Assembly: GCA_018268435.1 (NCBI GenBank)
Contig: JAFDWP010000196.1
Coordinates: 1-36,831, forward strand
Length of the DNA: 36,831 nucleotides
Direction: 5' to 3'
Origin: Actinomycetota bacterium
Lineage (GTDB): Bacteria > Actinomycetota > Actinomycetes > Actinomycetales > Microbacteriaceae
The position numbers were made by a program, and so were the translations under genes. The notes below the pieces were generated by a model. That model was not told where the DNA came from. It saw only the letters and a program-made list of their open reading frames with translations, and did no database searches. Below, one piece after another: positions 25,396 through 32,442 of this stretch; the first letter of the stretch is position 1; each line of letters begins with the position of its first letter.

Positions 25396-25465
25396 ACCGG
25401 TTCCTGAGCGAGCCGCAGGCCATCCGCCACCGGTTCCTGAGCGAGCCGCAGGCGAGACGAAGGAC
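25396..25465. repeat. intergenic repeat, GAGCCGCAGGCGAG variant, one partial and one full copy
   Basis: ACCGGTTCCTGAGCGAGCCG plus CAGGC occurs at 25396-25420 and again at 25429-25453. The second copy continues with GAGACGAAGGAC, the same 3' end as the repeats at 30756-31390. Compared with those, this variant has a single-base insertion in each central half. It lies between the mycoredoxin and transporter genes, and its end abuts the transporter's -10 box. Confidence 0.8.
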
Positions 25466-29761: not shown

Positions 29762-30754
29762 GTGACCACCACGGTGACTCTGACCGGCGCCGGCGGGCAG
29801 ATCGGATACGCGCTGCTGTTCCGGATCGCGGCGGGCGACATGCTCGGCCCGCACGAGAAGGTGCGGCTGCGGCTGCTCGAGATCCCCGCCGGTCTCGCCG
29901 CCGCCGAGGGTGCGGCCCTCGAGCTGCAGGACGGAGCGTTCGGCCTGCTCGAGCACGTCGAGGTGACCGACGACCCCGCCATCGGCTTCGACGGCGCCGA
30001 CCACGCGCTGCTCGTCGGCGCCCGGCCGCGCGGCCCGGGCATGGAGCGCGGCGACCTGCTCGCCGCCAACGGCTCGATCTTCGGCCCGCAGGGCGCCGCG
30101 ATCGCCGCGCACGCCGCGCCCGGGATCCGCGTCACGGTGGTCGGCAACCCCGCGAACACGAACGCGCTGATCGCGGCGGCCTCCGCCGACGGCGTGCCCG
30201 CCGAACGGTTCAGCGCGCTCACCCGGCTCGACGAGAACCGTGCGCGGGGTCAGCTCGCGGCGGCGCTCGGCGCCCCGGTGACCGACATCGCCGGCGTCAC
30301 GATCTGGGGCAACCACTCCGCGACACAGTTCCCCGATGTGGCGCACGCCACCGTCGGCAGACGTCCCGTGCTCGACGCCCTCGTGGAACGGGGCGGGGAT
30401 GTGCGGGCGTGGCTGGACGGCACGTTCATCCCCCGGGTGGCGAAGCGCGGTGCCGAGATCATCCAGGTGCGCGGATCCTCGTCCGTGGCCTCGGCGGCGA
30501 GCGCGACCATCGACCACGTGCGCGATTGGGCGCTCGGCACCGGCGAGCGCCGCACCAGCGCCGCCGTCGTCTCGCACGGCGAATACGGCGTGCCGGAGGG
30601 ACTGATCAGCTCGTTCCCCGTGCGCGCGGTCGACGGGGCGTGGCAGATCGTCGAGGGGCTGGATCCGGACGCCTGGGCGCGGGAGCGCATCGACCGCTCG
30701 GTCGCCGAGCTCATCGAGGAGCGCGACGCCGTCCGCGCCCTCGGCCTGCTCTGA
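29762..30754 (+). CDS. mdh: malate dehydrogenase
   Basis: A 330-aa TCA-cycle enzyme that oxidises malate to oxaloacetate. It has the NAD loop [12 protein letters not shown] (residues 9-20), Glu40 in RLLEIP (acidic, so NAD rather than NADP), the substrate loop [14 protein letters not shown] with Arg90 and Arg96, VGNPANTNA, Asp157 in TRLDENRA and the catalytic His185 in WGNHSATQF. The length is that of the group with cytosolic MDH. The GTG at 29762 is preceded by AAGGGAG. A TAGGCT box at about 29717 may be its promoter. Oxaloacetate is also a product of ligK, but the genes are 22 kb apart. Confidence 0.94.
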
Positions 30755-30755
30755 C

Positions 30756-30813
30756 GGTCGGTCCCTGAGCGAGGAGCGCAGCGACGAGACGAAGGGCGTC
30801 AGCTCAGGAACCG
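30756..30813. repeat. type-A repeat copy plus a type-B end, downstream of mdh
   Basis: A full copy of the longer repeat form, starting GGTCGGTCCCTGAGCGAGGA and ending GACGAAGGG, fills 30756-30796, two bases after the mdh stop codon. GCTCAGGAACCGG (30802-30813), the inverted end of the shorter form, follows 5 bp on. Together they form an imperfect inverted pair just beyond the end of the GIY-YIG gene, and may stop transcription from both sides. Confidence 0.85.
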
Positions 30814-30823
30814 GGAGCGCCCG

Positions 30824-31108
30824 TCAGCGTCCACGCGATCGTCGGCTCCATCCCTGCAGGTCGTCGTAGCGCCCTTCGATCAGCGCGAGCTTCTTCGCGC
30901 GGTTCCAGCGATGGATCCTGCGCTCCCAGGCGAACGCCTCGTCGACGCGCTCGAACTCCGCCGTCCACACGAGTTCGACGGGGCGGCGGCGACGGGTGTA
31001 GTCGCCGCCGAACCCCTGCTGATGCTGTTCCAGACGCCAGACCAGATCTGTCGTGCTGCCGGTGTAGAAGCTGTCATCGGCGCAACGGAGGATATAGACG
31101 TGCGGCAT
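30824..31108 (-). CDS. small GIY-YIG nuclease-domain protein
   Basis: A 94-aa stand-alone GIY-YIG domain (UPF0213/YhbQ-like). The motif is HVYILRCADDSFYTGSTT, with the two tyrosines and the GS end in place, then the WRLEQHQ helix with the catalytic-type Arg and FAWERRIHRWNRAKKLALI with the metal-binding Glu. It seems intact. The ATG at 31108 stands 7 nt from TACCGT (31116-31121 on the complement), so it is probably leaderless. Copies of one repeat family lie on both sides of it, 10 bp beyond its stop and from 52 bp before its start. Confidence 0.88.
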   Translation of the reverse strand: MPHVYILRCADDSFYTGSTTDLVWRLEQHQQGFGGDYTRRRRPVELVWTAEFERVDEAFAWERRIHRWNRAKKLALIEGRYDDLQGWSRRSRGR

Positions 31109-31115
31109 GCCGGAC

Positions 31116-31121
31116 ACGGTA
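31116..31121 (-). promoter_or_regulatory. -10 box of the GIY-YIG gene
   Basis: TACCGT on the minus strand, 7 nt before the ATG, with no ribosome binding site. Confidence 0.4.
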
Positions 31122-31160
31122 CCGGCGCGGCCGAATGCGGCGAGCGCGTTGTCCACAGGC

Positions 31161-31390
31161 GTCCTTCGTCTCGCTGCGCTCGCTCAGGAACCGGGGGTCG
31201 GTCCCTGAGCGAGGAGCGCAGCGACGAGACGAAGGGGCTCAGCGCACCCGCGCGTCCTTCGTCTCGCTGCGCTCGCTCAGGAACCGGAGGTCGGTCCCTG
31301 AGCGAGGAGCGCAGCGACGAGACGAAGGGCGCTCGCTCAGGAACCAGGGGGCGGCGGTCCGTCGTCTCACTGCGCCCGCTCAGAAATCGG
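31161..31390. repeat. array of alternating type-A and type-B inverted repeats
   Basis: In order: type B (31161-31194, minus orientation), type A (31196-31236, plus), B (31254-31287), A (31289-31329), a B end only (31331-31346) and a decayed B (31357-31390). Each B-A pair is an inverted repeat of about 76 nt, and the pair is duplicated with a 93-bp period. B reversed has the core GAGCGAGCGCAGCGAGACG; A has GAGCGAGGAGCGCAGCGACG, the same core with two extra triplets. This fills the whole gap between the GIY-YIG and alcohol dehydrogenase genes; no gene was found in it. Confidence 0.88.
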
Positions 31391-31401
31391 GGGAGACCCG
31401 C

Positions 31402-32442
31402 TCAGATCGTGGCGACGTCGATCACGAAGCGGAACCTCACATCGCTCGCCAGCACCCGGTCGTACGCGTCGTTGATGCCGGCGGCGTCGATGAGCTCGAT
31501 CTCGGCGGCGAGTCCGTGCTCGGCGCAGAAGTCGAGCATCTCCTGCGTCTCGGCGATGCCGCCGATCGCGGATCCGGCCAGCGACCTGCGGTGCCCGAGC
31601 AGCTGGCTGATCGACAGCGACATCTGCTCCGGGGGCGCGCCGACGCACACCAGGACGCCGTTCGTGTCGAGCAGGCGCAGATAGTCGTCCAGCGGCAGCG
31701 GCGCGCTCACCGTGTTCAGGATGAGATCGAACCCGCGACGGTTCCCCGTGAAGGTCTCCGGGTCGGAGGTGGCGAGGTAGCGGTCCGCGCCGAGCCGGAT
31801 CCCCTCCTCCTTCTTGCGCAGCGACTGGGAGAGCACGGTGACCTCGGCGCCCAGCGCGTGGGCGATCTGCACCCCCATGTGGCCGAGCCCGCCGAGGCCG
31901 ACGACGGCGACGCGCGATCCCGGACCGACCTTCCAGTGCCGCAGCGGCGAGTAGGTCGTGATGCCCGCGCAGAGCAGCGGCGCCGCACGGTCCAGCGGGA
32001 TCGACGCGGGGATCCGCACGACGAAGTCCTCGGTGACGACCACCTGGCGCGAGTACCCGCCCTGCGTGACGGTGCCGTCGCGGTCGATCGCGCCGTACGT
32101 GCCGACCGATCCACCGGTGCAGTACTGCTCCTCGCCGCGCCGGCAGGCGGCGCATTCGCGGCAGGAGTCCACCAGGCAGCCCACGCCGACCCGGTCGCCG
32201 ACCGCGAACCGGGTGACGTCGGATCCGACGGCGGCCACGGTGCCCGCGATCTCATGCCCCGGTGCGAGCGGGTAGCGCTGCGGGCCCCAGTCGCCGCGCA
32301 CGGTGTGGATGTCGGAGTGGCAGATGCCTGCGAAGGCGATGTCGATCACGACGTCGTGGGCGCCGGGCTCGCGGCGCTCGATCGTGGTCGGGGCGAGAGG
32401 CGCACCCTCACTCGGTGCGGCGTAGGCGGCGACGACGGGCAT
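31402..32442 (-). CDS. zinc-dependent NAD(P) alcohol dehydrogenase
   Basis: A 346-aa medium-chain dehydrogenase close to the AdhC/YahK/cinnamyl alcohol dehydrogenase group. The catalytic zinc site has Cys41 (GICHSDIH) and His63-Glu64 (GHE). The structural zinc has Cys94, Cys97, Cys100 and Cys108 ([15 protein letters not shown]). The cofactor loop [13 protein letters not shown] is near residue 180. These enzymes reduce a range of aldehydes, usually with NADPH. The ATG at 32442 is divergent from the resolvase-fold gene across 142 bp. Confidence 0.9.

Follow-up and report, generated by a model that had tools for sequence, protein, structure and literature searches.

The window, a stretch of 36,831 nucleotides from an Actinomycetota bacterium of the family Microbacteriaceae, contains an intact open reading frame of 94 amino acids for a GIY-YIG nuclease on the reverse strand (30824..31108; ATG start; PF01541), for which a GTG at 31156 is an alternative start giving 110 amino acids. 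The flanking open reading frames encode, as judged by eye, a malate dehydrogenase (mdh; 29762..30754, forward strand) and a zinc alcohol dehydrogenase (ADH; 31405..32442, reverse strand), and by synteny they form the two borders of a gene-less orthologous site in L213 and L229. Past the stop codon of the nuclease gene is a whole, inward-pointing palindrome of the form CCCT-GAG...CGA-AGGG (30763..30796, forward), next to a fragment of a second, inverted copy, its GCTCAGGAACCG part (approximately 30799..30815, reverse; repeat family D3). Directly upstream of the gene lies a whole, inward-pointing palindrome, TCCT-GAG...CGA-AGGA (31162..31189, reverse), head-to-head with another whole copy (31203..31236, forward; repeat family D1). 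Two further whole palindromes (31255..31282, reverse, and 31296..31329, forward) are likewise head-to-head, giving two upstream doublets (31162-31236 and 31255-31329), beyond which are a partial copy, CGCTCGCTCAGGAACC (31330..31345, reverse), and a degenerate copy with a 73% match (approximately 31358..31391, reverse; repeat family D2). This tally, one whole copy and one fragment past the stop codon and, upstream, four whole copies and two that are partial or degenerate, agrees with the first-pass annotation, which had reported copies of one repeat on either side of an intact 94-residue GIY-YIG gene. The same palindrome family occurs at a second site in the window (25403..25464, forward) as one partial and one whole copy (25435-25464).

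A pattern search of the 3.34-Mb genome from which the window comes found 228 copies of CCTGAGCGAG versus 18 of the reversed string, so the window palindrome belongs to a genome-wide family; CGTTGAGCGAG, a string discussed below, has 8 copies there. An Rfam search of the locus returned zero matches at the gathering score, and the sub-threshold matches, mostly to miRNA families, look like chance hits arising from self-complementarity. We infer that GAG opposite CGA would place tandem G.A mismatches within the stem. Minimum-energy folding as single-stranded DNA formed the outer stem in just three of eight test repeats, neither of the window's two among them, and folding therefore lends no support there to a hairpin substrate.

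PF01541 is the sole domain found in the window protein (E value 5.3e-17; 62.3 bits against a Pfam cut-off of 22.6), which has no NCBIfam match, and its AlphaFold2 model (pLDDT 89, pTM 0.81) has the GIY-YIG fold. The nearest solved structures by sequence are UPF0213 proteins (1zg2 and 1ywl); by fold they are UPF0213 and then Slx1-Slx4. The GIY-YIG core is marked by conserved Tyr, Tyr, Arg, His, and Glu residues, and in the proteins of the subfamily defined below these are Y5 (166/168), Y15 (171/171), R25 (170/171), H29 (171/171), and E62 (170/171). By its domain and five core residues the protein is a member of the GIY-YIG superfamily, with a predicted nuclease activity. The dN/dS ratio of the window gene versus L012 is approximately 0.05, and a median of 0.26 over 139 pairs indicates that the gene is under purifying selection. 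In a plasmid collection of 72,556 records, relatives occur in 40, each with less than 60% identity.

A protein-only search of a collection of 84,980 species produced 25 loci, most of which by eye have palindromes on both sides that differ in sequence between loci. Palindrome-flanked examples come from Microbacterium, Agrococcus, Nocardioides, Sphingomonas, Bradyrhizobium, Lysobacteraceae, Maribacter, Eremiobacterota, and others, and at three of the 25 loci (L030, L032, and L033) no flanking palindromes were seen by eye. The palindromes share a common module comprising an outer stem X, GAG, an inner part, CGA, and the complement of X. In Maribacter (Bacteroidota; L026, L029, and L125) this module lies beside GIY-YIG genes and is A+T-rich at L125.

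The genomes searched comprised 199 Microbacteriaceae (49 positive, with 67 matches, all taken), 149 Sphingomonadaceae, 119 Microbacterium (53 positive), and 15 genomes of named loci. Subfamily membership was assigned by HMM (at least 85 bits with a model end of at least 82, or at least 110 bits), as was strand, and the resulting subfamily consists of 171 loci from several phyla, 170 of them distinct since L028 and L111 are one gene and both were counted. The rule left out 35 rows, 8 from Microbacteriaceae and 27 others. Also left out were three genus rows below 85 bits (L265, L290, and L291), the near-duplicates L013 and L029, doubles among L104-L120 of the named loci, L105/L035 (a second copy like L016), and the unscored L034 and L036. 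Sixty of the 68 listed Microbacterium rows were taken in, the other 8 being short fragments, as were 34 of the 71 listed Sphingomonadaceae rows with at least 89 bits and, in addition, 37 low-scoring rows among the matches listed.

The module is present on both sides within 400 bp in 139 of the 171 subfamily loci, compared with 0 of 27 for the unrelated ADH gene in Microbacterium, in keeping with an enrichment of repeats beside GIY-YIG genes, the absence of which the first-pass annotation had named as contrary to its proposal. The ADH figure applies to located genes and omits the gene-less sites L213 (module on both sides) and L229 (one side); with fixed positions it is 1 of 27. Microbacteriaceae account for 51 bracketed loci out of 59, and in the same 59 loci six control modules bracketed 0 to 3 genes and a seventh, CGA/GAG, 9, the last being a poor control because the repeats themselves contain CGA/GAG. 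Among the 139 bracketed loci, 99 have inward-pointing nearest copies (one quarter expected, p = 4e-30), with median gaps for these 99 pairs of 61 bp upstream and 33 bp past the domain end. The three outer-stem bases are equal on both sides in 98 of the 139 pairs, versus a mean of 27.8 and a maximum of 45 in 1000 shuffles. These results confirm that the association of gene and repeat is wider than the window alone could reveal. Among the dropped rows, seven nested Microbacteriaceae genes (L095-L097 and L099-L102) are without module bracketing as defined; L103 and L181, also nested in the subfamily tree, are bracketed, and adding all nine gives 141/180. By eye, L095, L097, and L099 sit amid repeats such as GTTGGCTCGAGGGAGCGCCAGCGACCGAAGCCAAC, which resemble the module with an additional base ahead of GAG, and L100-L102 have no repeats.

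The site between ADH and mdh is without the nuclease gene in G470 (L213, 2544-2674) and G423 (L229, 2542-2676), and by eye both gene-less sites hold a head-to-head palindrome doublet of the CGTTGAGCGAG type. This doublet matches the palindromes that flank the nuclease of the same two genomes elsewhere (L208 and L196). Comparison of L012 with L013 revealed, near the gene, indels of 72 and 28 bp containing copies of the repeat; two more indels, of 33 and 31 bp, lie approximately 2 kb away and contain parts of palindromes. A clean-bordered insertion of one whole solo palindrome was found in neither the L012/L013 nor the L026/L029 comparison.

Gene presence and repeat load were compared using pattern searches for genome-wide counts, where no gene means none detected and, for large genomes, part of the first-look gene candidates was scored. 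Of the Microbacteriaceae genomes, 37 of the 46 with the gene have the GTAT-type palindrome, as do 25 of the 153 without it (Fisher 1.5e-15), the 153 including three genomes with low-scoring matches only (G002, G102, and G149); a reversed-pattern control gave zero in 199/199 genomes of the family. At least 5 copies were found in 32 of 48 Sphingomonadaceae genomes with the gene and 22 of 101 without (1.8e-7), and at least 20 copies of CCTGAGCNNGTCGAAGG in 22/48 versus 6/101. The repeats are therefore not equally common with and without the gene, although some gene-less genomes are rich in repeats; equal frequency was the other outcome that the first-pass annotation had named as contrary to its proposal.

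For one repeat type, copy number is higher in genomes with the nuclease of matching type. Across 119 Microbacterium genomes, with two that hold gene fragments (G378 and G406) placed under no gene, an excess of CGTTGAGCGAG over its reversed string of at least 30 was found in 18 of the 24 genomes with a GTT-type gene only and 3 of the 4 with both types, compared with 6 of the 68 for which no gene was fetched, 1 of the 14 having a CCT-type gene only, and 0 of the 9 others. The respective medians of the excess are 89, 50, 5, 7, and 9. The corresponding link for CCTGAGCGAG is weak, with 3 of the 14 CCT-type genomes reaching an excess of at least 30, compared with 2 of the 68 that have no gene; several genes of the CCT type are found within CCTGAGC[C/T]TGTCGAAGG-like repeats (e.g., L200), which the CCTGAGCGAG string does not count. 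G423 is an exception, having a GTT-type gene yet 115 copies of CCTGAGCGAG. The searched repeat type is missing from 9 of the 46 gene-bearing Microbacteriaceae genomes and 10 of the 48 gene-bearing Sphingomonadaceae genomes, which is explained at least in part by their having repeats of different types. Copy-rich genomes without a detected gene include G045 (621 copies), G069 (117), G025 (105), and G438 (114), where the gene may have been lost recently or have escaped detection, or a different type may supply the activity.

The joint occurrence of gene and repeat load is also what would be seen if the palindromes spread by other means and, once folded into hairpins or cruciforms, stall replication, the nuclease being kept as a housekeeping or addiction function that resolves these structures and spreads nothing. 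Both the purifying selection on the gene and the processing of branched DNA by Slx1-Slx4, the nearest fold of studied function, fit such a role. By itself, however, it does not explain the position of the gene between inward-pointing, matched copies, and the gene went undetected in the genomes with 621, 117, and 105 copies. We consider this explanation unlikely, but deserving of serious attention.

A second repeat class emerged from the remaining small GIY-YIG genes in sphingomonads, those with an A1 score below approximately 66 bits, which were initially a negative control for the GAG...CGA module and many of which have CGTC-type REPs beside them. Such REPs have been described as having a CGTC or TGTC head, a stem of 8-9 bp usually starting with AT, a loop of 4-5, and a CCA tail, and they are reported to be apparently without a dedicated transposase (Di Nocera et al. 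2013, PMC3733652). Our detector required a GTC head, a perfect stem, and a loop of 3-8. With a stem of at least 7, CGTC REPs lie on both sides of 10 of 21 genes (other heads, 0-1) and 8 of the 20 genes from a fresh set (other heads, 0-2), and with a stem of at least 6 on both sides of 16 of 30 Pseudomonadota loci (other heads, 0-3), the search of 249 genomes having given 60 positive ones, 30 of which contribute one listed row each. The pooled set at stem 7 (L163-L179, L242-L261, and L292-L321, with L126, L129, L130, and L133) has CGTC REPs on both sides of 34 of 71 loci, with control heads at 0-6 and 22 of the 34 pairs pointing inward; the 71 include both L244 and L292, which represent a single place. 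The detector is strict. On visual inspection, the majority of the 20 fresh loci are flanked on each side by copies, perfect or imperfect, and a few have other palindromes. The AT stem start and CCA tail could be read by eye in many of these REPs but not in all, and the form CGTC-ATTCCCGC-GAAG-GCGGGAAT-CCA that flanks the second subfamily resembles the published CGTC-tagged REPs, differing from the 2013 description in lying beside a GIY-YIG gene. The window's palindromes, with their GAG...CGA module, are a separate class. The two classes hardly cross over, the CGTC form being found on both sides of 0 of the 171 loci of the GAG...CGA subfamily and the GAG...CGA module at 1 of the 71 loci of the CGTC subfamily (L126).

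Repeat type also follows nuclease type within the first subfamily. On a tree of 179 proteins, built on few columns and with many forks unresolved, the outer-stem label requires 25 changes, versus 66.3 in 200 shuffles (minimum 57) and 50.5 (minimum 43) when labels are shuffled inside taxonomic groups. The label changes 11 times in Microbacteriaceae alone, against 24.3 in shuffles (minimum 18); in Sphingomonadaceae alone the 7 changes are within chance (9.3, minimum 5). Genomes with two or three nucleases may have a distinct palindrome at each (G036, G117, G174, and G180). Based on a strict double label, the label of a paralog equals that of its nearest relative from another genome in 8 of 19 cases and that of the co-resident paralog does so in 1 of 19, a test in which the definition of the label matters since the strict version gives only 8/19.

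Individual residues co-vary with the repeat. All 72 rows with R at residue 73 have T two bases before GAG, and 49 of the 56 rows with K at this position have C there. Of the 86 rows with T adjoining GAG, 81 have G at residue 67, versus 20 of the 44 with C. None of the independent contrasts for the residue 73 and 67 pairings is opposite in direction, though there are at most five, too few to reach 0.05.

These patterns are difficult to reconcile with the gene being a passenger that lands in or between existing palindromes, as a safe intergenic recombination hot spot, with the repeats being independent of it. The repeat type would then have no cause to track the nuclease type on the tree, GTT-type amplification to follow the matching nuclease, or the two nuclease subfamilies to keep to two repeat classes. 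We therefore regard a passenger role as highly improbable, despite the repeat-rich genomes without a detected gene and the description of REPs as insertion sequence targets in part of the literature (PMC1525189). Least credible to us is shared ancestry alone, whereby gene and repeats are vertically inherited and their types agree without a functional link: labels do cluster by lineage and independent residue-base contrasts are few, but paralogs in the same genome have different types (8/19 against 1/19, as above), the gene is patchily distributed (49/199 Microbacteriaceae and 53/119 Microbacterium genomes), and shuffles within taxa need twice the observed changes (50.5, minimum 43, vs 25).

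The explanation that we favor, and consider fairly probable, is a REP system in which a GIY-YIG nuclease is the dedicated enzyme instead of a RAYT transposase. The cognate association of gene and palindrome is well supported. Support for action of the predicted nuclease on the repeats is indirect only, coming from repeat type on the protein tree, the different repeats of paralogs, copy number, and residue-base co-variation. The first-pass annotation had likened the locus to RAYT genes among their REPs, with a different nuclease fold, and this likeness is supported by the GIY-YIG identity of the enzyme and by the outcome of both the enrichment and the gene-less-genome comparisons.

Like the REP/RAYT systems (TnpA-REP or REPtrons), the window has intergenic palindromes of a dispersed family, some as dimers, around the gene of a nucleic-acid enzyme, and across the subfamily the gene is flanked by its own type of genome-dispersed REP (139/171 loci). 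According to parts of the 2013 survey, REPtron enzymes are repeat-specific where families coexist, and some species have repeats but no REPtron (PMC3733652). RAYTs are described there as HUH tyrosine transposases of the IS200/IS605 group whose REPs end in GTAG (PMC3733652). Here, in contrast, the enzyme is a GIY-YIG protein, with only PF01541 and no HUH transposase domain found on the window protein, and the palindrome heads in the window have GGTC or GGTT before CCTGAG, without GTAG. It is not a RAYT system, though it would work like one. GIY-YIG homing endonucleases of the I-TevI type belong to the same superfamily, and their selfish spread by break repair is a likely analogy. As presented in part of a phylogenomic survey of the superfamily, homing enzymes cut DNA whose target site is uninterrupted, and they often have NUMOD modules (PMC1564403); the window protein, unlike these, is a bare 94-residue domain amid dispersed cognate repeats. 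The small GIY-YIG proteins of UPF0213/COG2827, the closest structures by sequence, and Slx1, next by fold, are the other relatives, and SLX1 is described, in the portion of the literature consulted, as inactive without SLX4.

We propose that the nuclease would recognize the base of the palindrome, that is, the outer-stem bases adjoining GAG and CGA, probably as a hairpin or cruciform. It may nick or cut there as Slx1-like enzymes cut branched DNA; these nucleases are the nearest solved relatives of studied function, and an extruded hairpin fits as a substrate. Host break repair using other copies as template would then spread and homogenize the palindromes, and could carry the gene, bordered by two inverted copies, to new places. 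The second GIY-YIG subfamily may play the same role for CGTC-type REPs. We are evenly divided on the broader proposition that small free-standing GIY-YIG nucleases are the missing enzymes of many bacterial REPs, acting by base reading through the W68-K73 region, cutting, and copying both themselves and the palindrome by break repair. As part of this proposition, one subfamily would drive GAG...CGA palindromes in Actinomycetota, Alphaproteobacteria, Bacteroidota, and others and another the CGTC REPs, together forming a second class of REP system, transposase-free and self-spreading, and R73 for T and K73 for C two bases before GAG would be a candidate code in the first subfamily.

Literature searches suggest that this proposed partnership of enzyme and repeat was previously unrecognized. 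By word search, no GIY-YIG-REP link appears in the available text of PMC12306157 or PMC1564403, and 'palindrom' is absent from that of the latter survey. Within the open-license PubMed Central literature, none of the matches listed is a GIY-YIG-REP paper by its title or abstract start, and the sequence string of the commonest repeat is in no paper. The Bradyrhizobium repeats Br-REP1 and Br-REP2 were considered, and their consensus sequences, as given in part of PMC5082802, differ. In the accessible sections of the 2013 survey, the GTAG class alone had a known partner enzyme and the mobilizer of CGTC REPs was left open (PMC3733652).

REPs are dispersed in many bacterial genomes, and if GIY-YIG nucleases are their partners, the question of CGTC mobilization becomes testable with an enzyme of fewer than 100 residues. 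The candidate recognition code, which sets residues 66, 67, and 73 against two stem bases, is checkable by single-residue swap. If the partnership is real, genes whose annotation goes no further than 'GIY-YIG nuclease family protein' would likewise gain a possible role. The one locus at which the repeat classes cross over, the deltaproteobacterial L126, groups with the second subfamily, and its palindrome, TTGTCATTCTGAGGAGCGTAGCGACGAAGAATCTC, combines a GTC head with the GAG...CGA module; it is possibly an intermediate between the two classes.
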